From the NCBI GenBank assembly GCA_015488215.1, contig WFOE01000228.1, forward strand, positions 1-33,648: a stretch of DNA of 33,648 nucleotides. The letters run 5' to 3'. The position numbers and the translations under genes were made by a program. Source of the DNA: Planctomycetales bacterium. Lineage in GTDB: Bacteria; Planctomycetota; Planctomycetia; Pirellulales; S012-138. Positions within the stretch are counted from its first letter, which is position 1. Each line of letters starts with the position of its first letter. Below the pieces are notes generated by a model. That model did not search any database and was not told where the DNA came from. It saw only the letters and a program-made list of their open reading frames with translations. Shown here in pieces: positions 15,701 to 33,648 of this stretch.

Positions 15701-16531
15701 TTACTCTTGGGCCAAGGCTTGTTTGAGCACTGCGATAAGCTGAGCAATATTTTGTGGCGTTTCCACTGGAGGCCGCTCCGGACGGGGAGCTTTGCGCGTT
15801 CCCCAACAAGCCAGAAACCCCGCTGGATGAATGAACCAACCGGGCAAGTAAGGGCGGAGCTTCCGCAGGTCCGGTTCGCGGTACCCGGGTAAACGGCACA
15901 CACCCAGCCCGTGCTTGTCGTGAAACAGCACCCCTACGGGCCTTTCCCCAGCCGTCGGCACTTGAGCTTCCGGAGCCCAGTGGGGCTGATCGCTGATCTG
16001 GTCGCGTATGGCAAACACCCAAGGTCCGATACGGATCGAGGCAAGTTCCGATTCGCGGAGTCGGATCGTCAACTGTGCCAGGCCGCGGAGGATGGGCAGC
16101 ATGGTTCGCAACACGGACCGGTCCAGCGCGTCACCTTCGAGGCCTTGGGTTTCGAAATAGCAACGCGTCGCCGCTACGATCTGCGCCAGCGAAAAGTGAG
16201 GCACGGCCCCACCAAAGCGGTCCTGGGCTTCGATTTCTGCAAGCAGCGCCGAGCCCCGCAGGGCCGCGGCCTCAGGCATCTCCACCGAAGCAGCTTGAAC
16301 CGTGCCGTCGGCGCTCTGCGTTCCTTTCTGGCCCAAGGGGTGGTCCAGCACCCGAGCATCTCTCCACTCGGGTGGTAATTCCTGAGCATGGGCTGGCAAG
16401 AAACCAACTTCTTCCGGCTCCACTCCAGCGAAGGCCACGCACGCACAAGCGTCCAGATCAACGGCCGGATGAACCACGACCTTTATGGTTCGCGTGGGCT
16501 CAGACACCGAGTTGTGATCAGAGTTCCGCAT
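15701..16531 (-). CDS. DHH-superfamily phosphoesterase-like protein coupled to the CRISPR operon
   Basis: A 276-residue protein with a degenerate DHH phosphoesterase pattern. VVVHPAVDLDACACVAFAG supplies H21, D25 and D27, and VLDHPLG supplies D63-H64 with Pro in place of the second His. The C-terminus GWFIHPAGFLACWGTRKA (from residue 231) resembles the DHHA1-like end of MYG1-type members. DHH enzymes cut small phosphodiesters such as pApA and nanoRNA. A DHH/NrN enzyme degrades SAM-AMP in some type III CRISPR systems. Its ATG overlaps the stop of the Cas7-insertion gene (TAATG at 16529-16533), so translation is coupled. I infer a role in degrading the Cas10 messenger or its products. Caution: similar proteins may occur outside CRISPR loci. 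Confidence 0.55.
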   Translation of the reverse strand: MRNSDHNSVSEPTRTIKVVVHPAVDLDACACVAFAGVEPEEVGFLPAHAQELPPEWRDARVLDHPLGQKGTQSADGTVQAASVEMPEAAALRGSALLAEIEAQDRFGGAVPHFSLAQIVAATRCYFETQGLEGDALDRSVLRTMLPILRGLAQLTIRLRESELASIRIGPWVFAIRDQISDQPHWAPEAQVPTAGERPVGVLFHDKHGLGVCRLPGYREPDLRKLRPYLPGWFIHPAGFLACWGTRKAPRPERPPVETPQNIAQLIAVLKQALAQE

Positions 16532-19020
16532 TACAGCTTTTTCAACGGAAGAAGTCCACCTGGAATTGCCTTTTTGTCGCCTTTTGGCAGTTTTCTTCCT
16601 TTGGCGTGTTTTTTTCTCAATTCTTGGTGGTACTCGAAGATCGACCCGCCTATTCGTGGATAGTCGAACCTGCGGCGCCCGACGAATCGGTGAACTTCAA
16701 GCCAAGAGCAGAAAACTTCTTGGACCCACCGATGCAAGTCCCCTTGAAGTTTGTCCTTAAGGAACCTGACAAAGGCTTCCAGGCAACGGCGCTGGATGTC
16801 TTCGGAAAGCTCGGCTTCTCCTGGCAGGCCGTCCTGTTGTTTTACTAGGATGCGCCCCTGGTTCAATCTGATGGCTATGCTGCCTAATCCCAGCGGACGC
16901 CCGTGGCCGATCTTATGTGCAAGCACCGGTTGTTTCCCGGGCTGGTTCCCCAAGTAACGATTGACCCATCCCTGTAAATCCTCCGAATCTCCGGCCGCTT
17001 CCTTCATAAGCAGATCAGCAAATGTCTTCAGGTCCTCCGGACGTTGGAAAAGCACCAAGAGCAGGGCACCAAGTTCCCAAGGTTGCAGGTTGACGAACCG
17101 CAGCGTGAAGCGGAACCGGCGTCCCGGCTTGGAGATAAAACGGCCGAAAGGTGCCTGATTGCTGGTAAGGAAGATTGTGTTGCCAGACTGCCAATCGGGC
17201 TGGCTTGAATCGAGCAGCTCATAGCATTTAGGGTCCCGTGCAGCGTCGGGCTGGTGCAAATAAAACTTTCGACCGCGGAGGTTACCGGCTGATTCGTCCT
17301 TTTGAGTATCACCATAAGTGCACAAAATGCCCGCATCCTTACGTTTGCACAAGCGTTCCTTGTCCTGTGTCAAGTAGTGCTCTACGGCACTGGTTTTTGG
17401 CGCTCCCAAGGGGCGAAGGGGAACCAGGCACTCATGCTCCGGATTGAGAAACCGTTTGCCCACCGCCTCGCCTTCGGATAGCTGCTCTACAGCATGGTTC
17501 AAAGCGATCCGTCCTGCCAGTTGGGCAAAATCGGTCTGCTTCCCCCCGCAGTAGCCGATGCCGAACGAGAGCACTTCGTCCGGGGAGTAGTTTCCACCGC
17601 TAGGGCCCACATACCCGAAGAACAAGCGAGCCGCACTAAGCTGCGACGGACGGCCGGATGGATCGGATTCAAGTTCGGCTGGCCGAGGCGCAAGCAAATC
17701 CCGCAACGTGGCCAACTGATTGTACTTTTGTGCCAGGTGCTTCGCCTGATAGTCCGACTCCTGAGTGTGGTGTACGGTGTCCCGATACCGCTGGCGGTAA
17801 TAGACGTGATGGCCAAGGGTGCACAACGCCCAGGTGTTCTGCCCCTGGTATTTGAGAGGCAGCAATTCCACAACCAGAACGTCTCCTGGTAAAATCCCTC
17901 GATTACGTAGTTTTTCAAGCTGTGTTTTTATTCTCTCTACGTCCGCAGCATCGACCAATGGGTGATCCCGAAGATGTCCGTATTTTTCGTCACTTAGATG
18001 GATAAGCGTTTCGTTCCGCCAAAAATCCACTTGCGTCATTGCCAAGGGAACAATTCTTATGTACTCCTCGTAACCGATTTTTATGTGGTCTTCCTCAGGC
18101 ATTTCCAGCAACAGATAGTTATAGCCAAATGGGCCCTCGCTGATCGAATCGGGATGCTGCTCAGCGAACCGGGAAGCAAGAAGCCCTTGTGTGTCGATTC
18201 CGTTAAAATAGTAAGCAAGCACCAGCCGTTCGACATTTTCGCCCTTCCGTATTTTTCCGGTTTCATCCAGTTGCTTCTTTTCCTTGCGTGAGAGGAACGG
18301 GCGAGAGGTGGACGATGAAAATGTGTTCAGACCGTTGTAATGCTTGCGGTCCGACTGGCTGTCATCAAACTTCGGTTTCCAATCGGGAAGAAACTGTTCT
18401 ACATCCTGTGGCACGTAGTACGCGCGGTCCAACTCAAACAGAAGGAGAGTGACCGCAGAATCGGTAACACCGGTTACCAGCCCCAGGAACACGTAAGAAC
18501 GCGGCTTTGTCTTCGGTCCAGCAAACCACAAGTTGGGACGGTAAGAATGGGTCTTTTCCCACACGCGTTCCATCGGGGCCGAAAGCAGCGCTGAGAGGCT
18601 GTGACGCAGCATCCCTTTGAGTTGAGTGGCTGGGATGAGCACCGGGCCGGGTTTATTTGACTGGGAGTTTAACAACAGGGGCTCGATGATCTTCTTCTCG
18701 CTCGTTTTGGGAGTCTGCGCGGCTCTCCTTTTTCTGAAAATCTGGTACGCCGCCTCGCGCACACGCTGCAATGCCACCGGCTCCTGGAGTGCAGTGGCAT
18801 CGCCTTGCTGAGCACTTCCCAGCGCGTACTGGTAATTGCCGGGCAGCAGCGGCGTAAGCGTTTCCAATTCGCAATACAGCGTACCGGTAAACGCTTGACC
18901 CTGGCCGCCAGAGCCGGAATCGAGCCCTTGGAGCACATCGTGCGGTTGAGGTTCCGCGGTAAGGGAAACCTTCGTGTTGACCGGGACAAAGTGGTAGGGT
19001 GCAGGTTTTTGTTCTGACAT
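16531..19020 (-). CDS. cas7: large type III Cas7 protein with insertions (TIGR03986-like RAMP)
   Basis: An 829-residue RAMP protein. The N-terminal part has HDVLQGLDSGSGG and LYCELETLTPLLPGN, a Cas7 beta strand and loop. VLIPATQLKGMLRHSLSALL (about 128-147) is the conserved RAMP helix after the 'IPGSxLKG' strand. A long middle insertion (about 200-480) is charged and unique. The C-terminus carries NQAPFGRFISKPGRRFRFTL and HKIGHGRPLGLGSI (from residue 702), typical of TIGR03986. It matches the 'Cas7-insertion' subunit of III-Dv complexes, which lies along the crRNA backbone. It is fifth in the leftward operon, 18 nt after the csx19-like gene, and overlaps the start of the DHH-like gene by one base. 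Confidence 0.8.
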   Translation of the reverse strand: MSEQKPAPYHFVPVNTKVSLTAEPQPHDVLQGLDSGSGGQGQAFTGTLYCELETLTPLLPGNYQYALGSAQQGDATALQEPVALQRVREAAYQIFRKRRAAQTPKTSEKKIIEPLLLNSQSNKPGPVLIPATQLKGMLRHSLSALLSAPMERVWEKTHSYRPNLWFAGPKTKPRSYVFLGLVTGVTDSAVTLLLFELDRAYYVPQDVEQFLPDWKPKFDDSQSDRKHYNGLNTFSSSTSRPFLSRKEKKQLDETGKIRKGENVERLVLAYYFNGIDTQGLLASRFAEQHPDSISEGPFGYNYLLLEMPEEDHIKIGYEEYIRIVPLAMTQVDFWRNETLIHLSDEKYGHLRDHPLVDAADVERIKTQLEKLRNRGILPGDVLVVELLPLKYQGQNTWALCTLGHHVYYRQRYRDTVHHTQESDYQAKHLAQKYNQLATLRDLLAPRPAELESDPSGRPSQLSAARLFFGYVGPSGGNYSPDEVLSFGIGYCGGKQTDFAQLAGRIALNHAVEQLSEGEAVGKRFLNPEHECLVPLRPLGAPKTSAVEHYLTQDKERLCKRKDAGILCTYGDTQKDESAGNLRGRKFYLHQPDAARDPKCYELLDSSQPDWQSGNTIFLTSNQAPFGRFISKPGRRFRFTLRFVNLQPWELGALLLVLFQRPEDLKTFADLLMKEAAGDSEDLQGWVNRYLGNQPGKQPVLAHKIGHGRPLGLGSIAIRLNQGRILVKQQDGLPGEAELSEDIQRRCLEAFVRFLKDKLQGDLHRWVQEVFCSWLEVHRFVGRRRFDYPRIGGSIFEYHQELRKKHAKGRKLPKGDKKAIPGGLLPLKKL

Positions 19021-19038: not shown

Positions 19039-19614
19039 TTAAGGGGAGACGATTCTCCAAAAAATCCTTCGCCCGCGGCAAAAATACTGGCGCACAACGC
19101 AATCGGTGTTCTCTTTCCAGGTAGGAGGCTGCAAGCCGTAACGGTTCCAATCGCGTAGCGCCATTACCCGGCGATCGGCAAAGTAAATCGGCACGAAGGC
19201 CGATTGCTGGTCTGGCCAGGTAGTCCACTGTTGCGACGAGTTGAGCTGATCCAGAAGACCGGACGGTACAACCTTTTGTGGGGTCTGCCCCTGCGGCACT
19301 TCAGCCCAAAGCGCCCAGCGAGTCAGACCGTCGGCTGCGGCCAGTTGCAAGGCGGCATGGTTCCAGTAGAGCCGGGCTTCTTCCAAGGGAGGAAATGTTT
19401 CCGTATTCCATAGCTGTCCTCCCCAAGGCACAAAGCCGGGAAAGGTAGCGGGGGTCCATACTCTTTGAGCGGCTGGAGCTGGCTCCAGCCAGGCTGCTTT
19501 GGGCTTGAACGCCAGCAGTTGGGCCATCCACATGTGGAGCAACTGCTTCCGGACGCCGGAAAGGCATTCCAGCCGGCCGTTGAGTTTTTTCAGAGAAAGC
19601 GTGGTGGAACTCAT
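19039..19614 (-). CDS. csx19: Csx19-like small subunit
   Basis: A 191-residue protein between two Cas7 genes. EEARLYWNHAALQL resembles the 'ELRLFG...ELHLWR' region of Csx19. The closing VVRQYFCRGRRIFWRIVSP resembles its 'VRNYL' end, and RVMALRDWNRYGL lies between. Csx19 is characteristic of type III-D and a structural member of III-Dv complexes. The similarity is weak and is supported mainly by length and gene position. The ATG at 19614 is preferred to an in-frame TTG at 19629. There is no strong ribosome-binding site, so it may depend on coupling to the upstream cas7-2x gene, whose stop lies 26 nt before it. Confidence 0.5.
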   Translation of the reverse strand: MSSTTLSLKKLNGRLECLSGVRKQLLHMWMAQLLAFKPKAAWLEPAPAAQRVWTPATFPGFVPWGGQLWNTETFPPLEEARLYWNHAALQLAAADGLTRWALWAEVPQGQTPQKVVPSGLLDQLNSSQQWTTWPDQQSAFVPIYFADRRVMALRDWNRYGLQPPTWKENTDCVVRQYFCRGRRIFWRIVSP

Positions 19615-19640
19615 CTCACTACGACTCAAGATGTTCTTGC

Positions 19641-21239
19641 TTATTTTCTAGAGGTATGGAAAAACCTGTCCACATCTGAAATGGAACACACATCAAGCGA
19701 TTCGAACAAAGGCCGAAGTCTTCCAGCCTGAGTGAGGGCAGCTCGGGTCAATTGCCAGCGAATCCATCCGTGGCCTCGCCATTTTCCGCCGCCCAAGGCA
19801 CAGTACCCCAGCTCGGCCAGGCGGAGGGCCGGACGGAGTGTCGCGAACATTTGTTGCAGTTCTTCTTGAGAACAGGCTTCCAACACCAGTTGCGTCCCCA
19901 GTTGACCTTCCAGCAGCGCAACCCGATCGAACTTGCCATGTCCCCAAACCCCGCCGGCGAACTCGTCTTCGGCGTGGTGGTGGAACCAGGCAATGTGCCA
20001 TGGGTTTCCTCGGTCGTCACTGTTGAGAAGCAAAGCGTCTCGAATCAACAAACGACCGCTTTGTGTGCCTAAACCGAATACCTGAGCTATCGAATCCAGA
20101 TTCCGCCTGTCTTTACCTTCCTGGCCGGGTTGGAAATCGGGGGCGTTGGGATCTTGCACCGGTGTCCCCTGTCCTCGGTGCCAGGCCGAAGCCACATGGC
20201 GCAGCGGACCGCGAATGCCACTGCCGGGCAGGAAAGGTTCTTCCTGGTAACTTTGCGAGCGGAGCACATAGGTGGTGGCGGGAACAAAGTCCGGCTCATA
20301 ATACCGGAGAAACTCTTCCTGGTCGATTCCTTCCGGTCCGAGCAGCCCTTGTTGCAAAGCTGCCACCTGGCCAGCCAAATGGCCTCCGGCAGAGAGAGTG
20401 TTCCAGCCATAGCTTTCCGGTTCCGGACCAGTGCAGAACTTTACATCGAGAATCAAGTAGTGGAACGGATCATAAAGCGATTCGAGCTCGGGACTGAGAG
20501 TTAAAGAGTCCAATTGCGGTTGGCCCATCGGGCGTGCCAGTTTTCCAAAGCGAGCCATAGCGCTGCGGAGGCTGTCGATCTTCAGCGTATTGTCCGGCCA
20601 TTGTTGGACTACCTGGGGCCTAAGAGGAAGCCGGAAGGCACAGAACTCTTCCAGTCGCATCCATCCTAAGCCCCGGGCTGCTCCAGCTCCTAACCAGCAG
20701 CGTCCTTGGGTCCACTCTCGCAGTGCAAGCAGAACCATCTGTTCCAGTTCCGGCCCTCCGCGTGCCGTGTCGATTTCCAGCATGAACCACCAGCGAACCC
20801 CCGGCGGAACCACCTCCAAATCGTAAAGGGCTTTACGTTGCGATGCGGTACCTCCGGTGGCCTGACGAACGCCGACCCCCTGGCGCAATTGCCGCAACTG
20901 GGCAGGCGCCTTGACGGGATGAGCAGACCAGAAGCGAACGCAGGATTGCCGCAGTGTCAGCTCGCCCCGCCCCGGTGGTTGCTTTCCCTTGCCAGTGAGC
21001 GTCCAACGCAGCCATTCGTTGTGCCTCGTGGTAAACAATTTGGGGAACAGTCGGGCCACAGTTTCGACCAGGGCTCCGGCGATCCCCGAGCCGGGAATCG
21101 TCAGCCGTCCCTGGCCATCCACGGCACACTGCATATCCGGCCCGTGCCACTGAAGACTACTCCCCCCCACCAGTAAGCCGGACTGCTGGACCAGGTGTCC
21201 GCAAACCAACGTGCGATAGATTTTGTCCTGCTGGGTCAT
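19641..21239 (-). CDS. cas7-2x: tandem double-Cas7 RAMP protein (Cas7-2x)
   Basis: A 532-residue protein made of two Cas7 (Csm3-like) domains. Domain 1 (about 1-205) has GLLVGGSSLQWHGPD with D35 in the place of the Csm3 catalytic aspartate, LTIPGSGIAGALVETVARLF and the Gly-rich loop WLGAGAARGLGWMRL. Domain 2 (about 255-532) has EEPFLPGSGIRGPLRHVASA (from 333) and ends with LGYCALGGGKWRGHGWIRW. I could not place a second catalytic Asp with confidence. Cas7 subunits form the backbone over the crRNA and cut target RNA every 6 nt. The ATG at 21239 is used: GAAGG overlapping the stop codon of the upstream gene is its ribosome-binding site, with an 11-nt gap. A longer upstream start would overlap that gene heavily. 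Confidence 0.82.
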   Translation of the reverse strand: MTQQDKIYRTLVCGHLVQQSGLLVGGSSLQWHGPDMQCAVDGQGRLTIPGSGIAGALVETVARLFPKLFTTRHNEWLRWTLTGKGKQPPGRGELTLRQSCVRFWSAHPVKAPAQLRQLRQGVGVRQATGGTASQRKALYDLEVVPPGVRWWFMLEIDTARGGPELEQMVLLALREWTQGRCWLGAGAARGLGWMRLEEFCAFRLPLRPQVVQQWPDNTLKIDSLRSAMARFGKLARPMGQPQLDSLTLSPELESLYDPFHYLILDVKFCTGPEPESYGWNTLSAGGHLAGQVAALQQGLLGPEGIDQEEFLRYYEPDFVPATTYVLRSQSYQEEPFLPGSGIRGPLRHVASAWHRGQGTPVQDPNAPDFQPGQEGKDRRNLDSIAQVFGLGTQSGRLLIRDALLLNSDDRGNPWHIAWFHHHAEDEFAGGVWGHGKFDRVALLEGQLGTQLVLEACSQEELQQMFATLRPALRLAELGYCALGGGKWRGHGWIRWQLTRAALTQAGRLRPLFESLDVCSISDVDRFFHTSRK

Positions 21240-21250
21240 ACGATTCGCCT

Positions 21251-23626
21251 TCAATGAGCTCTGCCGGATTGATTTTCCTTGGCCTTCAGGGCTGCCAAGG
21301 CCATGAGAAATAGTTGTTTCTCCCGAAAGGAATGTAATTGTCGGGTTGCTTTTTGAAGGTCTTGCAACACACTTTGCCAAGGAGAGCCGGAAATCCGCCG
21401 GGAATGTTCTAGGAGTTCGTTATATAGCGCATCCAATTCTTCCTGGTTCCGACACAGCTCTGCTCGATGGCGTAAGAATTGCCATTGATTGACATTCAAG
21501 GAACCCACTTTCTTTTTGTATTGAAAAACTTGTTCCAAAACGCATTCTTTTTTCCAATCGTCTTCCTCGTCGAGCTGAGAGGATGGCTCGGACGCGGCCC
21601 CAGGCAGGTTCACCCGCCCAGCAACTTGCGGCAGTGTCTTCCACCACGAAAGTTGGTGTAGGTTCAAATTGACCGTAAAGCGGCCGAACCCTTCAGCGGT
21701 GCGTTCTCCCAGCCCCAGGCCGTTTGCCGCCACGAGGTTCAGTGCGTGGGCAAAGGAGTCCAGCGAGCTTTGTTCCCCTTGAAAGACAAACACCGACCCA
21801 CGCCGCACCGCCACCGCCATGGCCCGAGGCAATCCGCTGGCAGAGTTGAAGCCCAGGACGGGCACGGATTCCACGACGCTTAGGTCCGGAGAAAGTTTAA
21901 TCTGGTGAGGATCAATCTTTTCTAAATCCAGGTTGAGCCAGGGGTGGACTACTTGTACCTGTTCCAACATGGAGTACCAAAGTTCCGGACCGGGGCAGGT
22001 GGAATAAGTCAGCCGGGGCGTACGGCAGATTAGCTCGCTAGCCAGGGTAACGGTGAGGAATCCCGGACGGCTTTGTTGTGGAACTTGCCGCTGGGGCCGG
22101 GGCAGGGCGGCCACGTTGCGGACCACGAGGGGCTGGCCCCCGCGACCCAAACGCAAACACCAGCATGCATGTCCGTTGGAAGCTACTAGCGGAGCAAGAA
22201 GTTGCAAAAACCGACGAGCGCACTGGGCCGAAGCAAACCCGATGTGAGCCTGGAAAACCTGGTCGGGCACCAGCATTTTCTGACTGAATAGGGCATCTTC
22301 TTGACAGCCAGGAGTCCCTTGATCCACATACGATTCCTCTCCGGTCGATGGATTGGGAGCAAGTTTCCCCCGGCGGTCGGGATCAATGCGCCCGGTCGGT
22401 ACCCGGTTCCGCAGGTGGACTTGGGTTTGCGCGGTTCCGCGTACCCACCAGGAGTCGCCGATTTTAGTCGCGAGGACGTCGGGCCGCTTAATGCGTTTGG
22501 TTTTTTCCGCAGCGGGAAACCGGCCGTTCTTCGAGCCGGCTTCAATGTTCCGTGCCACCTGGTCTTGCTCTCGGGAAGCTCCCAACAGCTCGTCGGGGGC
22601 TCCGGCCGGCCAGTTGGAAGGGGGCCCCTTGCTTTTCGGTTCCCGTAACGACAGTGGGATGGGCACCACCTGGCGGTCTGCAAGCGGGATTTCGGAGGCT
22701 GGAGGCGGAACCGCCAGCCCATCACTCACCCACATCTGCTGCGGTTGGGCCAGCTCTTCGGCCAGTGTTGGATCCTGGCTGCGGATAAAGTGCAACAGTC
22801 CCCCGCGGAGCGAAGAGCCGGGAATGTAGGCCAGCGTTTCGCCAATGTTCCCTACCACCACGGCATTGGCAAAAAACAGCGGTTCTAGGTTCTTCAACTC
22901 TAAAGTAAGCACAACCGGCTCGCTGGTTCCTTCGGGAATCAGCTTTTCCACGTCGATCTGTTCCGCTTGTACCGGGCGAAATTCCTCTCCTTGAGGAAAC
23001 CGAAGCTGGATGGCTCCTGTTCCCCGTTGCCGCCGACCTCCTACGGCGCTGATTCGCTTCAAACATGCCAGCACGGCTCGCTGGATATCTGCAAGTTTTA
23101 TGCTCCCTTCCTGCCAAGGACCTCCGGAGGCCGGATCGGCTAGAATCACATAGCCGGAAAAACAAGTGCCTGCCTTGACGGTTTCTACCGTGCGGAGCGT
23201 TTTTTCCATGGGGCTGCGGCTGTGCAGTTCCCGGGCCGTAAAGCTCCAGGTGGTAATTGCCTTTTGGGTTTGCCGTGCGTCGGGGCGCAGCGAGGAGACG
23301 ATCAGCGCCCCGCGCTCCCGAGAAGCATTTTGCGAGGCCTTGTTAACCGGGTGACCCAGCAGGTAATAGAGGAGCTTTCGGTCCCGGTTGAGATTGCTTG
23401 GATTCTCCCCGGCATCGGCTCGGGCCAGCAGCCACTGCTCGCCCGCTTCGCGCATCAGCCCTCGCCAGGTGGACCACCAGATGACGGGCTTTCCGCGGTG
23501 GTCCCGGGCCACGGTGGAATCCACCATCCCCAGGCGGCCCAACCCTGAGCCGCAGGAGGTGTCTTCCAACAGCTCCACTTGGAAATCCAGCCGCCACTGA
23601 ACGGGCTGTTGGGTGGTTGCACTCAT
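21251..23626 (-). CDS. cas7-cas5-cas11: Cas7-Cas5(Csx10)-Cas11 fusion subunit
   Basis: A 791-residue fusion. Residues 1-215 are a Csm3-like Cas7: DTSCGSGLGRLGMVDSTVARD, with D36 aligning to the catalytic Asp of Csm3, WWSTWRGLMREAG, and the Gly loop SAVGGRRQRGTGAIQL. Residues about 236-690 are a Csx10-type Cas5: ETLAYIPGSSLRGGLLHFI, VPPPASEIPLADRQVVPIPL, then DALFSQKMLVPDQVFQAHI and GLGLGERTAEGFGRF. Residues about 690-791 are a charged all-helical bundle (NQWQFLRHRAELCRNQEELD), as expected for Cas11. The same order is known from the III-Dv complex of Synechocystis. Cas5 caps the crRNA 5' end, Cas11 lines the filament and Cas7 cleaves target RNA. It follows cas10 by 13 nt. Confidence 0.82.
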   Translation of the reverse strand: MSATTQQPVQWRLDFQVELLEDTSCGSGLGRLGMVDSTVARDHRGKPVIWWSTWRGLMREAGEQWLLARADAGENPSNLNRDRKLLYYLLGHPVNKASQNASRERGALIVSSLRPDARQTQKAITTWSFTARELHSRSPMEKTLRTVETVKAGTCFSGYVILADPASGGPWQEGSIKLADIQRAVLACLKRISAVGGRRQRGTGAIQLRFPQGEEFRPVQAEQIDVEKLIPEGTSEPVVLTLELKNLEPLFFANAVVVGNIGETLAYIPGSSLRGGLLHFIRSQDPTLAEELAQPQQMWVSDGLAVPPPASEIPLADRQVVPIPLSLREPKSKGPPSNWPAGAPDELLGASREQDQVARNIEAGSKNGRFPAAEKTKRIKRPDVLATKIGDSWWVRGTAQTQVHLRNRVPTGRIDPDRRGKLAPNPSTGEESYVDQGTPGCQEDALFSQKMLVPDQVFQAHIGFASAQCARRFLQLLAPLVASNGHACWCLRLGRGGQPLVVRNVAALPRPQRQVPQQSRPGFLTVTLASELICRTPRLTYSTCPGPELWYSMLEQVQVVHPWLNLDLEKIDPHQIKLSPDLSVVESVPVLGFNSASGLPRAMAVAVRRGSVFVFQGEQSSLDSFAHALNLVAANGLGLGERTAEGFGRFTVNLNLHQLSWWKTLPQVAGRVNLPGAASEPSSQLDEEDDWKKECVLEQVFQYKKKVGSLNVNQWQFLRHRAELCRNQEELDALYNELLEHSRRISGSPWQSVLQDLQKATRQLHSFREKQLFLMALAALKAKENQSGRAH

Positions 23627-23639
23627 GGTTTCTCAAACG

Positions 23640-25502
23640 TTACGGCGTGGAAGGCACCGGCTGAAGCTGAGACGGTACCGACTGGCTTTGGAGCCCTTGG
23701 AGTCGTCGTAGTTCGTACAGTTCCATCAGATCGAGCAAACAGGTGGACCAGGTATTGGCTTGGCCGGAAGCGGTCCAGAGGAGCTGTCCCTGGTCGTGGA
23801 GCCGGGCCAAATCGCTCTTTACTTGCTCGTCGGCCCACAACATGGCGGCCAGGCGCCCCTGATTGCGTCCCCGGCGGGCATATTCGGCCAGCACGTGCAG
23901 CTTGCTTCGTGGAACCCGGCCGGCCCAACGTTCGGCCATTTGGAGCAGTTTTTCCAAAGAGAGCGGGCCGTTTCCCGATTCAGTTTTCAACACGCGATAC
24001 GGCTTGCTGGTAAGCAGAATCGTCTCGATTGAGTTGCCGGAAACACGGTAGCGGCGGGAATAGTCCTGGCGGCGGACCTGGTCCACGTCTTCGTACCACG
24101 CTTCGCTGGTTACCAGCCAATCGATTGTGGAAAATTCGCCTTCGCCCCGGTCACACAAGCTGCGATGGAGCTTTTTGGCGCTGCTGGCCAGTTCTTCGGC
24201 CAGATCATGGGCACGATAAAAGGGGAACGAAGGTTTGACAATGGCCACGCCGATTCCCACGGTCAATCGGCTCGAGGCATCACTAGACTGCTCTGTTGAT
24301 TCCGCGGTGGACCTCTCTGTATTTGTGGTCGGCTGAACGCCGCCACTTTCGATGGCCCGGGCATACGCCGTGGCAAACGGTAGGGCGAAAGCCGCGTCGC
24401 ACACCATGACGAAATCATCCCCGCCGAGCATCAGCAACCGGAAAGGTGGAGCCCCCTGATTTTGCTCCAAGAAGGCGTGAAAGGTATCCTTGATCGCCTG
24501 TTGCAATGCCCGACGCGTGGCCGTGCGACATTCAAAGTAGAAGCGCTCTCCTGCCGCTTCTGCAATCAGCCCGGCAATGTTCCGGAGGTTCGCTGCGTCG
24601 GACTTCAGCGCCTGTTGCTTTGCCTGGTTGCGTAGCTGGGTTCCTCGTTGGCCCAGGCCGTTGCCGTCGGCTACCGCCACGGCCAGGTAAGAGCTTACCC
24701 GGGCCACTTCGTGGAACTCGGTGGGCCAATCTCCCTTGCCTTGTTGCGGGAGCAGGGAGTCCCGCAACAAACCGATCAGGTCGAACGACCGCCCGTTGTT
24801 GAACCGATCCGCAGCCTGCCGGCGTTGCTCCACGGCAGGGCTGATGCGTTGCAGACGCCCCAACTCTTCCTTTTCGGTATACGCCCAGTCGGTAAGTGAT
24901 ACTTCACAGGGCTGCCAGAGTGGCAATCCCCAGGCGGCTTCTTCGGCCGGAGGGGCAATCGTTTCTCGGGTAGTCTGGTGTTTGGCTTCGCTTCCTGCTT
25001 GCTCCTGCGCTTTGCAAAACTCCTCCCACCGGAAGAGACTCATGCCGATCTGCAAACCGGGCAGCTTCTCAGTGATCAGCCGCCAGGCGTCTTCGGCAAA
25101 CGCCAGGGCGTTTTCCCGGCTGGGAAACACAGCGCGAAAGTGCCCCCCGTCCCGTGCAAGAATCCCTTGACGATAGGCCGTCCGGGGATCGTCCCAATCC
25201 TGCCCCGAGCTTCCGACAGGTTCTCCATTGCTGGGCAGATACTCTTCGACGGCCCTGAGCTGCTGCTGGTCCAGAGGCAGGCACGCCCCGTGTTCGAGAG
25301 CCAAGCCCGGAAGCGTTTGTCTGTCTTTTACAAATTGTCGGCTTCCTCCTTGGTCGCACAGTTTCCCTCGGAGCACTTCGCCAAGGAGAACATTGGCTCC
25401 GATGATCGACTTGAGCTCCGGAACGGAAAATAAAAAAGTCTGCACCCGCTGGAAGTCGATTGCCACCACGTAAGGCTCTGCGCATGCATCCCCTTGGGGC
25501 AT
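23640..25502 (-). CDS. cas10: Cas10, type III signature protein with an active-looking palm
   Basis: A 620-residue large subunit of the interference complex. The N-terminus YVVAIDFQRVQTFLFSVPEL and IIGANVLLGEVL is the typical start of a Cas10 without an HD nuclease domain; no HD pair is present. Palm 1 has VAVADGNGLG with D279. Palm 2 has LMLGGDDFVMVC with GGDD at 360-363, so synthesis of cyclic oligoadenylate or a related messenger is plausible. A Ser/Thr-rich insertion lies at about 388-411. The C-terminal helices (about 500-600) fit domain D4. The ATG at 25502 has AGGGAG at 25511-25516, 8 nt upstream. It is the first gene of the six-gene leftward operon; the promoter must lie in 25503-25858. 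Confidence 0.92.
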   Translation of the reverse strand: MPQGDACAEPYVVAIDFQRVQTFLFSVPELKSIIGANVLLGEVLRGKLCDQGGSRQFVKDRQTLPGLALEHGACLPLDQQQLRAVEEYLPSNGEPVGSSGQDWDDPRTAYRQGILARDGGHFRAVFPSRENALAFAEDAWRLITEKLPGLQIGMSLFRWEEFCKAQEQAGSEAKHQTTRETIAPPAEEAAWGLPLWQPCEVSLTDWAYTEKEELGRLQRISPAVEQRRQAADRFNNGRSFDLIGLLRDSLLPQQGKGDWPTEFHEVARVSSYLAVAVADGNGLGQRGTQLRNQAKQQALKSDAANLRNIAGLIAEAAGERFYFECRTATRRALQQAIKDTFHAFLEQNQGAPPFRLLMLGGDDFVMVCDAAFALPFATAYARAIESGGVQPTTNTERSTAESTEQSSDASSRLTVGIGVAIVKPSFPFYRAHDLAEELASSAKKLHRSLCDRGEGEFSTIDWLVTSEAWYEDVDQVRRQDYSRRYRVSGNSIETILLTSKPYRVLKTESGNGPLSLEKLLQMAERWAGRVPRSKLHVLAEYARRGRNQGRLAAMLWADEQVKSDLARLHDQGQLLWTASGQANTWSTCLLDLMELYELRRLQGLQSQSVPSQLQPVPSTP

Positions 25503-25858: not shown

Positions 25859-26857
25859 GTGTTGGACTACACATCGATGCTCTGGCCGCAAGACTCCCCG
25901 GCATCAACCAGAACGGAAAAGGACCCACGAGAACAGGCTCCTTCGCAGACTCAGCAAGGGGAGCCCCTGCTTGTGTCGATCACTGAATTGGCGCTGGAGT
26001 TCCTTTCCGCCGGTCGGCTGGTTCCTTGGTTGGGACCGGCTTTGCGAGGGTTGATCACCCGCGAACTGAAAAGCCGTAGTTGCGTTTTCGGGTCGCGTGG
26101 GCGGTTCGGCATCCAGTGCCACCGCTTCTGCGCCGCACCGGAGCGTTGCTCTTACGGGCGATTGTTCGAGCCAGGGCAGAACGCTCCCCGGATGGCTGTG
26201 GTGGCCCCCTATTTCCCCTGCCCCGAGCAAGCCGAACCAGGCATGTCCATTTCGGTGCGAATCATCCTGGTGGGGCAACAAGCTGCAGGCGACCTAAACT
26301 GCTTGCTCGAAACGTTGGATACCACCGGCCGGGCGGTGGGCATCGGGCCGGACAAGGTTCGCTTTTGCTTAAGGGAACGGCTGTGGAAAGCGAGTACGTC
26401 CCTTGCTCCGCAGGCCTTGGTGGAACCAAGAGATCCGCAGGAGGTATATCCCCGGGTGGCCATCGGATTGCGCAGCCCCTTGATCCTCCGCCGCAAAAAC
26501 GAAGTCGGCAAACGCTACACCGTCAATCGGCCGGAGCTGGAAGACTTTTATTCGTCTGCGGCCATCACCTTGCAGCAGCTCTTCGCGGCGCATGGCACCG
26601 AGCTGAATGCTCCTTACCGCCACTTGCGTCAACTGGCCGAAGGAGTTCGCCGCTGCGAGCAGCACTACCAACCATTCCGACAGGTGCGATGGTCCAGTCG
26701 CTCCCGGCAGCGATTCGAAATGTTCGGCTGCGTGGGAGGTGCCGTGTTTACCAACGTACCGGCAGCGCTTGTGCCCTGGTTGTACTGGGGTGGGCTGCTC
26801 CACGTGGGTGCCCACCGCGTTGCCGGGGCAGGAGGATGGCGCGTTATCCTTGATTGA
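25859..26857 (+). CDS. cas6: Cas6 pre-crRNA endoribonuclease
   Basis: A 332-residue RAMP-fold nuclease that cuts repeat RNA to release crRNAs. It shows WLGPALRGLITREL near 56, the Cys-rich stretch with CSYGRLFEPG ('CpYxxLFE' of Cas6), LRSPLILRRKN and the C-terminal Gly-rich region FGCVGGAVFTNVPAAL, followed by WLYWGGLLHVGAHRVAGAGG, typical of pfam10040 Cas6. The GTG at 25859 is used, with GGAGAG at 25848-25853 only 5 nt upstream; an ATG at 25877 is an alternative. The first 35 residues are polar and probably disordered. It is transcribed divergently from cas10 and convergently with the glycine-zipper gene. It is the only repeat-processing enzyme in the window. Confidence 0.88.
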   Translation: MLDYTSMLWPQDSPASTRTEKDPREQAPSQTQQGEPLLVSITELALEFLSAGRLVPWLGPALRGLITRELKSRSCVFGSRGRFGIQCHRFCAAPERCSYGRLFEPGQNAPRMAVVAPYFPCPEQAEPGMSISVRIILVGQQAAGDLNCLLETLDTTGRAVGIGPDKVRFCLRERLWKASTSLAPQALVEPRDPQEVYPRVAIGLRSPLILRRKNEVGKRYTVNRPELEDFYSSAAITLQQLFAAHGTELNAPYRHLRQLAEGVRRCEQHYQPFRQVRWSSRSRQRFEMFGCVGGAVFTNVPAALVPWLYWGGLLHVGAHRVAGAGGWRVILD

Positions 26858-27020: not shown

Positions 27021-28253
27021 TTAGCGGACGATCGATCCGGCTACGGCTTCGCCGGCCTTCTCTCCGGCCCAGGCTCCACCGATGCCTCCCACGATCGCCC
27101 CAACGCCCCCGCCAATGGCCGTACCAATAGGACCGAAGAAGGAACCGATCGCAGCTCCGGTGACCCCACCGGCCTTGGCTCCCGCCCAGGCTCCGGCGGC
27201 TCCCCCGGCGGCTCGACCGGCTGTTTGCGCGTGGCGCTGCAGGCGCTGCTTGTGGGTGATGCGGCCCTCGCGGTAGACCTTTTCGGTGTTGTACACCTCA
27301 AGGCCCCCCGTACCGATCTCCACAGCAACGCCTACAGGACCTGCCACACGCTCAAGCGCTCGGCCCAATTGCTTGGCCATCCGGCCTGCCCGACCGAGCA
27401 CTCCCAGGGCATCATCAGCAGCGCTGCTTACCCGGGGACGAACCCGCCCCGCCCTGGCCGAAGCGGTTCCTTTGACACGCGGACGCTTCGGCATGGGCGA
27501 TGCGGTAGCGCGGACCTTGGCAGAACCGGAGACCGAAGCGTGCCGCCCCAGGTGCTTGCTTGCCCGGGACCAGCACCTGCGGACGTGTTTGGACACAACC
27601 TTCTCCAGGTGCCGTTTCTTAGGCAACGGAGCACCACAGGGCAGCTTCGACATCACGCGCCCTTGCTCCAAGGCCTGTTTGAGCCGAGCATACTCCGGGG
27701 ACAGTGGGATGCCTCGGTAACGGGACAAGTACACCTTGCGTTTAAGTTCCCTCTCCAAGGCACGGTAAGTTTCTGCGTCGGTCAGAAAGTGCATCCCGCG
27801 ATACTTGGGGTCACTCAACGCGTTGATAATCGTCTTGGGACTGCCACTTTTGGCCTGAATCCGACGCAGCACCTTGCCGGTGGAAGTATCCACTTCCAGG
27901 ATGTCCGCCGCATGGTGCGGCTGCCCCAAAACGCTGGTGGGAACCCAGCGGGTTGCCTGGCCGGTGGCCTTCATCCGGGTGTTGACGGTGTGGGAGGCCA
28001 CCGCTTCCAAGGCTTTGCCCCGACGCGAATTGAGCGTCTCCTTCAGGTACTTCTCAGCCGAACCGTACCGCTCCACGGCCTTGGGGCTTACCCGGCCTGC
28101 GGTCCGGTCCAGCAAATCCGGAAGGGAGTAGATTTCCCCCGGAACGCGAACATGCTGGCCCACAGCCAGCGCAGGTTGGGCCACCGTTTGGGCCGAAACG
28201 TTGCCGGTAAAGGCAACCAAGGCAATCAACAACGAAAGAACGAGCGTCTTCAT
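27021..28253 (-). CDS. secreted protein with nuclease-like motif and C-terminal glycine zipper
   Basis: A 410-residue protein, not recognised as a named family. Residues 1-21 are a signal peptide ending VSA-Q. Residues about 70-170 form a compact domain with GQPHHAADILEVD and VLRRIQAKSG (D117, Q133, K135), then YRGMHFLTDAETYRAL. This resembles PD-(D/E)XK-like nucleases of polymorphic toxins in which QxK replaces ExK. Residues about 180-275 are very basic and low in structure (KRPRVKGTASARAGRVRPRV). Residues 344-409 are a Gly/Ala zipper such as GGVTGAAIGSFFGPIGTAIG, which could insert in membranes. The ATG at 28253 is firm: AAGGAG at 28260-28265 with 6 nt spacing. It is preceded by three micropeptide genes and closed by a clear terminator. 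A toxin or effector role is inference only. Confidence 0.6.
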   Translation of the reverse strand: MKTLVLSLLIALVAFTGNVSAQTVAQPALAVGQHVRVPGEIYSLPDLLDRTAGRVSPKAVERYGSAEKYLKETLNSRRGKALEAVASHTVNTRMKATGQATRWVPTSVLGQPHHAADILEVDTSTGKVLRRIQAKSGSPKTIINALSDPKYRGMHFLTDAETYRALERELKRKVYLSRYRGIPLSPEYARLKQALEQGRVMSKLPCGAPLPKKRHLEKVVSKHVRRCWSRASKHLGRHASVSGSAKVRATASPMPKRPRVKGTASARAGRVRPRVSSAADDALGVLGRAGRMAKQLGRALERVAGPVGVAVEIGTGGLEVYNTEKVYREGRITHKQRLQRHAQTAGRAAGGAAGAWAGAKAGGVTGAAIGSFFGPIGTAIGGGVGAIVGGIGGAWAGEKAGEAVAGSIVR

Positions 28254-28299
28254 TTGCTTCTCCTTTCTTTTGCTAGTAGACACGGGAGCCGGATTCGTG

Positions 28300-28344
28300 A
28301 AAAAGCGGCCCGAGCCGCCGGCTCCCGACGGGGCGACTCGGGCC
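28300..28344 (-). terminator. terminator or attenuator between micropeptide A and the glycine-zipper gene
   Basis: Arms GGCCCGAG (28307-28314) and CTCGGGCC (28337-28344) form an 8-bp GC stem. On the minus strand GC then TTTTT follow (A run 28300-28304). It lies between micropeptide A (ends 28380) and the start of the larger gene (28253). It could end most micropeptide transcripts and allow only partial read-through, making peptides more abundant than the large protein. Confidence 0.65.
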
Positions 28345-28379
28345 ACAAGGCACAACACGTAGTGGGGGGCAGGGGGCGT

Positions 28380-29356: not shown

Positions 29357-30952
29357 TCAACCGGTGTGCCGCCGGACGAACTCCTCCAGTTTTTCCCGGA
29401 GCTGGTCCACCGGTACGATGTCCACTCCTTCTTCTTCCAACCGCTCTAGCGTATTCCACCAGTCCGACGGCTTGGCAAACTTCTTGGCCCGAAGCGACTT
29501 CTCATCGTGTGCTTTGAGCTGGCGAATGTCTTCTTCGGTCAGCGGGAACACGATGGAAAACTCGCTGTAAGCCCCGGTGTAGTCCTCCAGTGCCTTGACC
29601 CGCGATTTGATGTCCTTGAGAAAAGACCCCTGCGCTTGGTTCCCAGAGTGATAGTGCGTTTTACATTCCAGGTGCAGCAAGTCCCCGGTCCGAAGCAGCA
29701 CAAGCACATCCAGCTCCATCACCACACTTGTCTCGGAAACCACCTCGACCCGGGAAGCCACCTCTTGCACTTTCTCTCGCAACGCCGCCTCTTGGCGAAC
29801 CAGATGTTCCACTTCGCACGCAACCCATTGCTCAAAAAGGTCTGCAAGCGAGTTTTCTTCCAACAAGGGGACCAATTCGGAGGAGGCCTCCCGAGCTACC
29901 AACAGATGAATCGGTTCGCCACAGATCAATTGGCGCGCTTCCTGGTAAAGCCAATCGTCGGTTTCGCGGGCGTGGGAACGCCACTCCAATATCAATCTTT
30001 TTTTCGAGAAAATTGCTTCCAAACGCTGATGGGCAGCCATGCGGATTTCCTGTTTGAGCAAAGGCTGCACATGTTCTTTCCACGCGGGCAAAAAGGTTAC
30101 GGCATCCTGGGCACATTGGAGCAACGCAGCGACAAGACGCTCTTCATATCCGTCGCGGAGCTGAGTTGCTTCGGCGGCTACACGGGCCTTCCTTCGAGGC
30201 AGCAAAGGAGAAAACAGCTTCGAAAAATACTCTTCGACTCGTTTCCGAAGCAATGGTTCGAGTGCGGTTACCTGCTGTCCCCAATCATCCCGGCGCTGCT
30301 GGGCCCGCTCGGAACCAGAGTGCAGCCAGGACCGGAACTCCGCATTGGTGCAAATCGACTCGCGGAACGCCTCCCGCTGCCGATCCGTCAGTCGAAGCCG
30401 GTCATTCCACTTTGGTTCCACCCCATACGGCTTCAACCGCTGTGCAAGCCAGCTCCCCACATCCTCGCCAAAAGGGAACTCAACCGCCAGCCAGCTCTGA
30501 CGAAACCTGCCGTCCAACGGCATCAGCTCCACTCGGGATGGGGGCGACGTGCAATACACGACCGAAACCCGGTCGAACAACTTGCGGGCCACCTCCACCA
30601 GCAGGACACGGTCCAATCCCCGCCCGGTGGTTACATCCACCGCCACGCCCCTCGGCTGGGCCCGGCTGTTCCCTGCTAGCTTCTGCGCCAATTCCTCCGG
30701 AACACCATGCTCCGGAGAAGGAAGCGAATACCATTCCACAGCCGTGTTGGCACACAGCCGCGTAACCTGCCGAGCGCGATCTTCCCAGCCTTTCCGTCTG
30801 GCCTCCGGCGTGACAAACAACACCAGCCGCCCTGGTCGGAGCGTGCCCAACAATTTACCCAGCACCAAGGGGTCCTTGGAAACTTGGGCAATCAACAGCT
30901 CGAAATAAGAACAAAACCCTTTCACCAGCAATTTATCTGAATTGCTTTCCAC
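29357..30952 (-). CDS. CARF-domain PD-(D/E)XK nuclease (Card1/Can2-like type III effector)
   Basis: A 531-residue protein. The N-terminal domain (about 1-150) is Rossmann-like with LVLFVTPEARRKG and GVAVDVTTGRGLDRVLLVEV, in the place where CARF proteins carry 'TGGTK'. A helical linker (about 180-370) follows. The C-terminal nuclease core is SLADLFEQWVACEVEHL, then ELDVLVLLRTGDLLHLECKT with E413, D415, E429 and K431, matching DUF1887/Card1. Card1 and Can2 bind cyclic tetra-adenylate and then cut DNA and RNA. With a GGDD Cas10 in the same island, this is the likely effector. The GTG at 30952 lies 15 nt after AAGGAG, a long spacing, so the start is uncertain. It is divergent from the CRISPR array. 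Confidence 0.75.
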   Translation of the reverse strand: MESNSDKLLVKGFCSYFELLIAQVSKDPLVLGKLLGTLRPGRLVLFVTPEARRKGWEDRARQVTRLCANTAVEWYSLPSPEHGVPEELAQKLAGNSRAQPRGVAVDVTTGRGLDRVLLVEVARKLFDRVSVVYCTSPPSRVELMPLDGRFRQSWLAVEFPFGEDVGSWLAQRLKPYGVEPKWNDRLRLTDRQREAFRESICTNAEFRSWLHSGSERAQQRRDDWGQQVTALEPLLRKRVEEYFSKLFSPLLPRRKARVAAEATQLRDGYEERLVAALLQCAQDAVTFLPAWKEHVQPLLKQEIRMAAHQRLEAIFSKKRLILEWRSHARETDDWLYQEARQLICGEPIHLLVAREASSELVPLLEENSLADLFEQWVACEVEHLVRQEAALREKVQEVASRVEVVSETSVVMELDVLVLLRTGDLLHLECKTHYHSGNQAQGSFLKDIKSRVKALEDYTGAYSEFSIVFPLTEEDIRQLKAHDEKSLRAKKFAKPSDWWNTLERLEEEGVDIVPVDQLREKLEEFVRRHTG

Positions 30953-31174: not shown

Positions 31175-33648
31175 GTCTCAGCGACCTCTGGTGGCCCTAA
31201 GGGCATTGAGACACGAGCGGGTAGAAGTGCAGTTGATCCCCTTGTTCACGCCGGTTTCAGCGACCTCTGGTGGCCCTAAGGGCATTGAGACGTCCGCCTC
31301 GAAACTGGAACACCAGCACCACGCCTCCTACCGCGTTTCAGCGACCTCTGGTGGCCCTAAGGGCATTGAGACGTCGTACGTGGTGGCCATCACGCACGAC
31401 CCGGCCCTTCCCCTCGGTTTCAGCGACCTCTGGTGGCCCTAAGGGCATTGAGACGGTCCGGACGGTGAAGTACAACCGCCGATCCCGGGTTTCAGCGACC
31501 TCTGGTGGCCCTAAGGGCATTGAGACCGGGGCCAGCCGGTCTGGTGGTAGGCCTATTTGGTAGTGCCAGTTTCAGCGACCTCTGGTGGCCCTAAGGGCAT
31601 TGAGACGGCGTCCCCAGGTGGGGACGCCGAGCTTACTTCCCGCCGTTTCAGCGACCTCTGGTGGCCCTAAGGGCATTGAGACTACGATCACGCCCCCTCG
31701 GGGGCGTGATCTTTTGGGGTTCTCGTTTCAGCGACCTCTGGTGGCCCTAAGGGCATTGAGACCATCCAAAAGGAAGGTGATTTTCACCTTTCCTGACGAG
31801 TGGAGTTTCAGCGACCTCTGGTGGCCCTAAGGGCATTGAGACTGGTGGATCACTGCAATGTTGCAGTGATCCACCAAGAGTCCGGGTTTCAGCGACCTCT
31901 GGTGGCCCTAAGGGCATTGAGACTCGTAGGATGCTTGCATTAGAGAAAGGAGTTATTTTCCGTTTCAGCGACCTCTGGTGGCCCTAAGGGCATTGAGACG
32001 AAGTAATGCCGATGGATCCTAGCATGATGGGAGGGTTTCAGCGACCTCTGGTGGCCCTAAGGGCATTGAGACCCACCACTCGATCCAGGGCGCAGGCAAC
32101 CACTTAGGGTTGCCGTTTCAGCGACCTCTGGTGGCCCTAAGGGCATTGAGACCTTTCGATTCCCAGACCAATGGGAAGTCGATTTTGGTAAGTGTTTCAG
32201 CGACCTCTGGTGGCCCTAAGGGCATTGAGACCCATCGTTATCGCGTCTGGTGAAGCCGGTAACGATGGCCACGGGTTTCAGCGACCTCTGGTGGCCCTTA
32301 GGGCATTGAGACTTCGGTTCAAAGCCACTCCGGATCAGGTGTTCGAGTTTCAGCGACCTCTGGTGGCCCTAAGGGCATTGAGACGAGGAACCGCTGATGC
32401 CAGCGGACATCATCGTACTCTTTGGCCACGTTTCAGCGACCTCTGGTGGCCCTAAGGGCATTGAGACTCGGCGGTTGTACGTGGACGGCAACCTCTGTGA
32501 CGGTTTCAGCGACCTCTGGTGGCCCTAAGGGCATTGAGACAGGTGGAGGGGATAGATATGAGGGTGTCTTACGGTTACGTTTCAGCGACCTCTGGTGGCC
32601 CTAAGGGCATTGAGACAAGGGGGGAAGCATCTGAAACGCTTCCATGATGTCATCGTTTCAGCGACCTCTGGTGGCCCTAAGGGCATTGAGACATGGCGTG
32701 GGAGGCGAATACCGGCCGGGCATGCTGGAAAAGGTTTCAGCGACCTCTGGTGGCCCTAAGGGCATTGAGACCGCGCAAGCGGGCCACCGTACGACGATCC
32801 TGACCCGGTGTTTCAGCGACCTCTGGTGGCCCTAAGGGCATTGAGACGCGGTCTTTTGCTCCTGGCCGCCACCGCTGTCGCCCCCGCCGGAAGGGTTTCA
32901 GCGACCTCTGGTGGCCCTAAGGGCATTGAGACTTCCACAGGCCGTCCTGGCTGCCGGAAGTCGCCCGGGCCTCGTTTCAGCGACCTCTGGTGGCCCTAAG
33001 GGCATTGAGACATGCCCGTGCGTAATATTCGTTACAACCGGCGCTCGCGCGTTTCAGCGACCTCTGGTGGCCCTAAGGGCATTGAGACTGCAACATCGCA
33101 GCCATCGACGGGGAAACCGGCCAGGTAATGTTTCAGCGACCTCTGGTGGCCCTAAGGGCATTGAGACTTCATGCGGGTGGAAATCTTAGCAAGATAATAG
33201 GTTTCGTTTCAGCGACCTCTGGTGGCCCTAAGGGCATTGAGACGAAGCCCCTTATCGGTTGAGCCTGCCCCCGGTATCCGGGTTTCAGCGACCTCTGGTG
33301 GCCCTAAGGGCATTGAGACCTGTTCCTTGGGTTGGGAGGAGCCGGTTTTTGTGTACTCCGTTTCAGCGACCTCTGGTGGCCCTAAGGGCATTGAGACCCA
33401 GCGTCAAAGCGGGAGGTGATATTCCGCTTTCCGAACGTTTCAGCGACCTCTGGTGGCCCTAAGGGCATTGAGACAACCTCTGTGATGAGGTTGCCATCCA
33501 AAACATTCGGGAGGCGTTTCAGCGACCTCTGGTGGCCCTAAGGGCATTGAGACAAGGTCGTCTTCCGATTTCCCAATCGATGGACAGTTTACTTGTTTCA
33601 GCGACCTCTGGTGGCCCTAAGGGCATTGAGACCCGTCCTGTTTGAAAA
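31175..33648. CRISPR. CRISPR array, 32 repeats of 38 nt, truncated at the window end
   Basis: Repeats start GTTTCAGCGACC and end GGGCATTGAGAC (plus strand). There are 32 copies from 31175-31212 to 33595-33632, then 16 nt of a further spacer. The 31 complete spacers are 34-47 nt, the variable length typical of type III. Repeats are identical except the first (31175, T to C at position 3) and the fifteenth (32275-32312, A to T in the central loop). Both repeat ends can give a plausible crRNA handle: ATTGAGAC after hairpin GCCC-TAA-GGGC on the plus strand, or GCTGAAAC after GGCC-ACCAGA-GGTC on the minus strand. The decayed left repeat and the coding sense of spacers favour minus-strand transcription. 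Short open frames in the array are repeat artefacts. Confidence 0.98.

Follow-up and report, generated by a model that had tools for sequence, protein, structure and literature searches.

A divergent DHH-fold protein encoded at the end of a planctomycete type III-D cas operon, a candidate for clearing CRISPR signalling molecules

The window analysed here, a stretch of 33,648 nucleotides from a Planctomycetales bacterium (GenBank assembly GCA_015488215.1, contig WFOE01000228.1), carries a type III-D CRISPR locus with a minus-strand operon in the order cas10, csx10, cas7, csx19, cas7 with insertion and a gene for a DHH-like protein (Table 1). The last two genes overlap in the pentanucleotide TAATG, in which the TAA of the cas7-insertion gene occupies positions 16533-16531 and the ATG of the DHH-like gene positions 16531-16529. 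Sequence inspection detected no strong Shine-Dalgarno sequence just 5' of this ATG, which fits translational coupling to cas7. An initial annotation of this DNA had described the TAATG coupling and had recognized the upstream gene as a Cas7 with an insertion; the coordinates and the profile matches bear out both points, and place the genes on the minus strand, which that annotation had not mentioned. No HD was found within the first 150 residues of the window Cas10. Between cas6 and the CARF-PDDEXK gene, positions 27021-28358 of the minus strand encode a 445-residue protein that begins like a signal peptide and has a C-terminus rich in glycine; for it, Pfam returned no match and PADLOC a chance match only.

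Table 1. Genes, repeats and putative active-site residues of the window.
Feature	Position	Strand	Basis or remark
Divergent DHH-DHHA1-like protein gene, 276 aa	15701..16531	-	ATG start; last gene of the III-D cas operon
Motif I, H21-x3-D25-x-D27	16451..16471	-	Alignment; pattern of NrnA H20/D24/D26 (PMC5593865)
D63-H64-P65, "DHP" site, motif III or motif II by reading	16337..16345	-	Alignment
Q79, His in 8/9 close members	16295..16297	-	Alignment; a ligand may have been lost from the window copy
H235 in GWFxHxxGF	15827..15829	-	Counterpart of DHHA1 GGGHxxASG / MYG1 C-terminal FxHxxGF
cas7 with insertion (III-D)	16531..19020	-	TIGR03986 1.7e-51; PADLOC Csm3/Cas7_IIId
csx19	19039..19629	-	PADLOC Csx19 3.9e-11
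cas7, two RAMP stretches, Cas7_IIId	19641..21380	-	Pfam, NCBIfam and PADLOC searches
csx10 / cas5-type RAMP of III-D, apparent cas7 + cas5 composite	21251..23626	-	Profile matches
cas10, GGDD cyclase motif at offset 359	23640..25502	-	PADLOC and motif inspection
cas6	25859..26857	+	PADLOC Cas6 8.6e-35
CARF-PDDEXK effector, related to the G564 protein bearing a fused DHH-like domain	29357..30952	-	PADLOC and comparison
CRISPR array, repeat GTTTCAGCGACCTCTGGTGGCCCTAAGGGCATTGAGAC	31175..33632	.	Repeat detection

None of the Pfam, NCBIfam, PADLOC and PHROGs libraries holds a model that matches the DHH-like protein, so its family has probably been annotated as hypothetical so far. Pfam gave nothing for the window protein at E<=1, and none of the nine close family members matched DHH at E<=10; in the source genome, PF01368 matched another gene only. 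The family likewise leaves the PF03690 (MYG1) sequence model unmatched, and hhalign comparison to NrnA and RecJ profiles returned nothing significant. Sequence matches in the PDB, sought with the window protein and with profiles as queries, were at chance level and were discarded.

Structure prediction, drawing on three sequences (the window protein and its homologues L002 and L027), points to a DHH-type fold. The AlphaFold model of the window protein has a mean pLDDT of 72.7, and the better model of the L002 relative (81.4) yields the same match list. Foldseek searches of the PDB with these two models ranked DHH proteins top (best E 3.9e-4 and 1.2e-4), the leading matches being the DHH-like H. 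pylori protein 6mtz, NrN (9lq9, 9lqa and 9lqb), RecJ (2zxr) and a PAP phosphatase. VIA-align, with match lists made up almost wholly of DHH/DHHA1 proteins for both models, matched both halves of the protein, DHH (residues 13-158) and DHHA1 (163-276), to DHH proteins with Z of 5-7; each Z is below 8 and thus modest, and whole-chain TM is low (0.2-0.3), so that the assignment of a DHH plus DHHA1 fold comes from the coherent ranking of the matches and not from close superposition. The models thus favor the DHH-type fold of the initial annotation over an unrelated fold. For the C-terminal half, hhalign also gave an alignment to a profile of MYG1-like proteins (E 7e-4) that scored 32-33, where 60 column-shuffled controls reached 19.3 at most. 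Because a literal DHH motif and a Pfam match are lacking, we file the protein with a divergent DHH-fold family and not as a classical DHH member; as modelled, the window gene belongs to a new family of nine close members with a MYG1-like C-terminal half.

An alignment of the nine close members and a distant copy from genome G207 (10 sequences) delineated the putative active site. Residues H21, D25, D27, D63, H64, D104 and H235 are kept in all nine close members; including the distant copy, D63 is present in 10/10 and H64 in 9/10 sequences, while the third triad residue is Pro or Asp and never His. The triad reads DHP in seven close members, DHD in two and DMD in the G207 copy, and neither the canonical DHH triad nor the MYG1 DHHQ motif occurs in any aligned member. 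H21-x3-D25-x-D27 and D63-H64-P65 had both been noted before and are present as described. The accompanying caution, that DHP in place of DHH may alter activity, holds as to the DHP itself; the substitution is a trait of the family, with its DHP or DHD, and is not peculiar to this copy. Peculiar to the window copy is another change that had gone unremarked, as had the family-wide triad: residue 79 is Gln here alone among the nine close members. For reference, the NrnA residues are H20, D24, D26, D80, H103 and D156; H104 faces the substrate, and H284 lies in GGGH (PMC5593865). Two readings of D63-H64 are possible from the sequence: i) DHP is motif III and motif II is lost, or ii) D63 is motif II and a degenerate "DGxxH79" lies near the motif III position. 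The spacing from motif I to D63 fits MYG1 motif II (36 vs 34), and that from D63 to D104 fits MYG1 motif III (41 vs 41). With D63 as motif II, the window copy would be missing one metal ligand; given the loss of His79, it may be weakened.

A scan of a collection of genome contigs with patterns specific to the window protein returned a single locus. Homologues were found in L002 (SKYB124, 52% identity) and in genomes G564, G167, G689, G429, G439 and G485, with the distant one in G207 and another on a viral contig, L027; relatives at 44-53% identity in seven other genomes place the reading frame beyond chance. Three of the eight cellular copies (window, L002 and G564) lie in III-D loci of one lineage, whose cas genes are collinear and 30-42% identical, and the other five are solitary (G167/G689 and G429/G439/G485). 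In G703, whose III-D system belongs to that lineage, a CARF-HEPN gene comes directly after cas7, and a DHH-like homologue was not detected. Among the 119 genomes of the taxonomic family, 7 carry the DHH-like gene, 16 have a strong III-D-like Cas10 match and 6 have both; III-D Cas10 is thus present in 6/7 carriers vs 10/112 non-carriers (Fisher p=1.5e-5, uncorrected for kinship and overstating the evidence because the genomes are related). The carriers cluster in four genera, and one, G485, gave no Cas10 match. Specificity for III-D surroundings, a point raised in the initial annotation, is therefore only partly right: co-occurrence within genomes favors it, and it fails for the immediate neighborhood of the five solitary copies. 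In the tree, the window copy sits on a longish branch (0.88) and groups with two solitary copies (support 95/93); the III-D-linked copies are not united, which implies repeated gain or loss of the linkage.

The viral-contig copy (L027:4995-5774, IMGVR_UViG_3300030397_000458) is a full-length homologue at 37-38% identity to the window protein that keeps His79, and is possibly a counter-defence gene; it adjoins aminotransferase and glycosyltransferase-like genes. Phage and plasmid collections gave no relative of the DHH-like protein, and a weak match in L005 (37% over 90 residues) was rejected as a frame artefact. The distant homologue of G207, another planctomycete, is solitary (L004:967-1803, 26% identity) and shows H-x3-N-x-D for motif I, DMD for DHP and no His79. 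Several further observations concern the genomes with solitary copies. In G167, the III-D cas7-insertion gene appears to be split by a transposase gene (L026:16940-20000 and L046:2-1351); in G689, of the same genus, it is whole, and both genomes keep the solitary DHH-like gene. The cas10 of G429 (L048:9462-11158) may be broken: it is spread over two frames that overlap, and the search reported a TGA in frame. Three genomes of a single genus (L023:9001-11328, L024:8514-10447 and L025:9897-12160) have the solitary homologue oriented divergently to a gene for a ThpR-like RNA 2',3'-cyclic phosphodiesterase. Enzymes of this type could open the cyclic phosphate that remains after CARF ring cleavage; the L023 homologue is also near recA.

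A fusion in G564 joins the DHH-like protein to a CARF effector type. Contig C411 of this genome contains an uninterrupted 617-residue frame in which a PDDEXK nuclease part (PADLOC CARF_PDDEXK 4.1e-9, similar to window 29357-30952) leads into a DHH-like domain with 49% identity to the window protein; a CARF_m10-HEPN gene and cas6 follow downstream. The III-D operon of G564 lies on contig C23, which ends within a CARF domain similar to that of the window effector. As the ends of C23 and C411 share no overlap, the PDDEXK-DHH part of the fusion is observed directly and its CARF half would be that on C23. Directly 5' of the III-D cas10, G564 also encodes an RtcR-type CARF-AAA-HTH regulator (L050:2870-4651, PADLOC 1e-121). 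In L002, the DHH-like gene shares an ATGA overlap with the start of a CARF_m10-HEPN gene. The link to type III signalling drawn at the outset is thus strengthened by operon position, the CARF-PDDEXK fusion and the adjoining CARF-HEPN genes. One effector common to all carriers was sought and rejected: CARF_m10-HEPN occurs in 3/22 genomes, and 2 have the CARF-PDDEXK type of the window. No report of a CARF-DHH fusion was found among the open-licence papers searched.

Taken together, a functional model can be put forward tentatively, as one that may well be right: the DHH-like protein would be a two-domain phosphodiesterase that clears cyclic oligoadenylate (cOA) or its linear products in III-D signalling. 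In this model, Cas10, a GGDD cyclase devoid of HD, would make cyclic oligoadenylate to which the CARF effectors respond; the DHH-like enzyme would hydrolyse either this messenger or the linear oligoadenylates that CARF ring cleavage leaves behind, thereby limiting and resetting the response. Its coupling to Cas7 translation would keep the amount of enzyme in step with that of the complex, and in the G564 relative the enzyme would be built into the CARF-PDDEXK effector itself. The coupling, locus membership, fusion, co-occurrence with III-D Cas10, conserved metal-type residues and predicted fold are direct results of the analysis; catalysis, substrate and off-switch role we infer by analogy with known pairs of an effector and a messenger-removing enzyme and with MAD, a DHH-DHHA1 nuclease acting on cOA. 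Counting against clearance of a messenger are the five solitary copies among eight, the Cas10-less G485, the missing triad, Q79 and the polyphyly of the linked copies; with the canonical triad absent and His79 missing, activity is not assured.

The solitary copies also suit a different, rather unlikely explanation, namely a general short-RNA exonuclease of MYG1 or nanoRNase type with an incidental III-D link, as gene-rich defence regions pick up genes. ThpR beside three copies of one genus and RecA near one are ordinary nucleic-acid genes, the C-terminal half resembles MYG1-like proteins, and MYG1 is described as a 3'-5' RNA exonuclease (PMC11167044). Three III-D placements, including the fusion to a CARF nuclease, speak against an incidental link, as does the co-occurrence with III-D Cas10; presence in 7/119 genomes is very sparse, unlike a housekeeping gene, and a classical DHH protein already exists in every genome searched for one. 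Slightly less probable is a nuclease effector damaging RNA or DNA, or a crRNA processor that, for example, trims 3' ends during complex assembly, in either case without acting on the messenger. Such a role would suit the last gene of a complex operon, coupled to Cas7 and fused to a nuclease effector in G564, and the DHH families do include RecJ and RNA exonucleases; yet the window copy has no sensor domain of its own, and 10/16 III-D Cas10 genomes of the taxonomic family do without the DHH-like gene, so III-D crRNA maturation does not generally require it.

It is doubtful, more so than for either nuclease role, that the window protein has little or no catalytic activity and, as a subunit of the III-D complex, binds the messenger or acts as a scaffold. 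Gln in place of the His79 of 8/9 close members, the DHP triad and the branch length would agree with such a loss, whereas all seven conserved residues are kept and the relatives in III-D loci retain His79. SAM-AMP degradation as by NrN, the analogy first drawn for this gene, is very improbable despite the NrN crystal structures among the top fold matches, because the neighbors are CARF proteins, which sense cOA, and no CorA, the partner of NrN (PMC10600005), was recognized among the large open reading frames of the window; NrN also has a true DHH, D85/H86/H87 (PMC10600005).

Clearance of cOA or linear products thus stays our preferred proposal. III-D systems act through second messengers and mostly lack an HD nuclease (PMC11229360), which makes switching off the signal matter. 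Fusing a CARF nuclease to an enzyme of DHH fold would give a second, unrelated design for a self-limiting effector, and, if the virus-borne copy clears the messenger, viruses would have a new way of evading CRISPR. The broadest version of the idea, in which a signal-clearing class has arisen on a MYG1-like DHH fold devoid of the DHH motif, with a self-limiting CARF-PDDEXK-DHH effector in one lineage and viral carriage as counter-defence, is speculative and, taken whole, improbable.

DHH enzymes in type III signalling were already known; new here are the family, its missing DHH triad, the III-D context and the CARF-PDDEXK fusion. NrN, the DHH phosphodiesterase of CorA-type III-B systems, degrades SAM-AMP and leaves pApA and cA2-6 uncleaved, and fusion of nrn to corA sets a precedent for joining an effector to a messenger-removing enzyme (PMC10600005), as does fusion of Csx1 to the ring nuclease Crn2 (PMC12409355). 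The DHH-like protein is similar to NrN in size, predicted two-domain fold and type III link, and the nrn-corA fusion parallels the CARF-PDDEXK fusion; in contrast to the true DHH and CorA partner of NrN, it has DHP or DHD and CARF effectors in III-D. MAD from Sulfolobus islandicus, a DHH-DHHA1 nuclease, degrades cOA (PMC7854544) and, compared by its description, shares the DHH-DHHA1-type fold and the cOA clearance proposed here, but is membrane-associated with broad substrates, whereas the present family is small, diverged in motif and only partly within III-D loci. MYG1 (PF03690) aligns over the C-terminal half, including FxHxxGF, with a comparable motif I-D63 spacing, and differs in that the family leaves PF03690 unmatched and has no DHHQ. 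Crn1-4 and Csx1-Crn2 resemble the proposed off-switch in role, in adjoining or being fused to a type III effector and, for Crn2 and Crn4, in having viral copies; Crn4, a ring nuclease linked to III-D that has orthologues in viruses, shows the same usage pattern on an unrelated fold (PMC12830947). The folds of Crn1-4 are all unrelated to that of the DHH-like protein, and the putative DHH-type enzyme may have linear products as its substrates instead of cyclic ones. On the best reading, the DHH-like family would resemble NrN or MAD in role and not in family.
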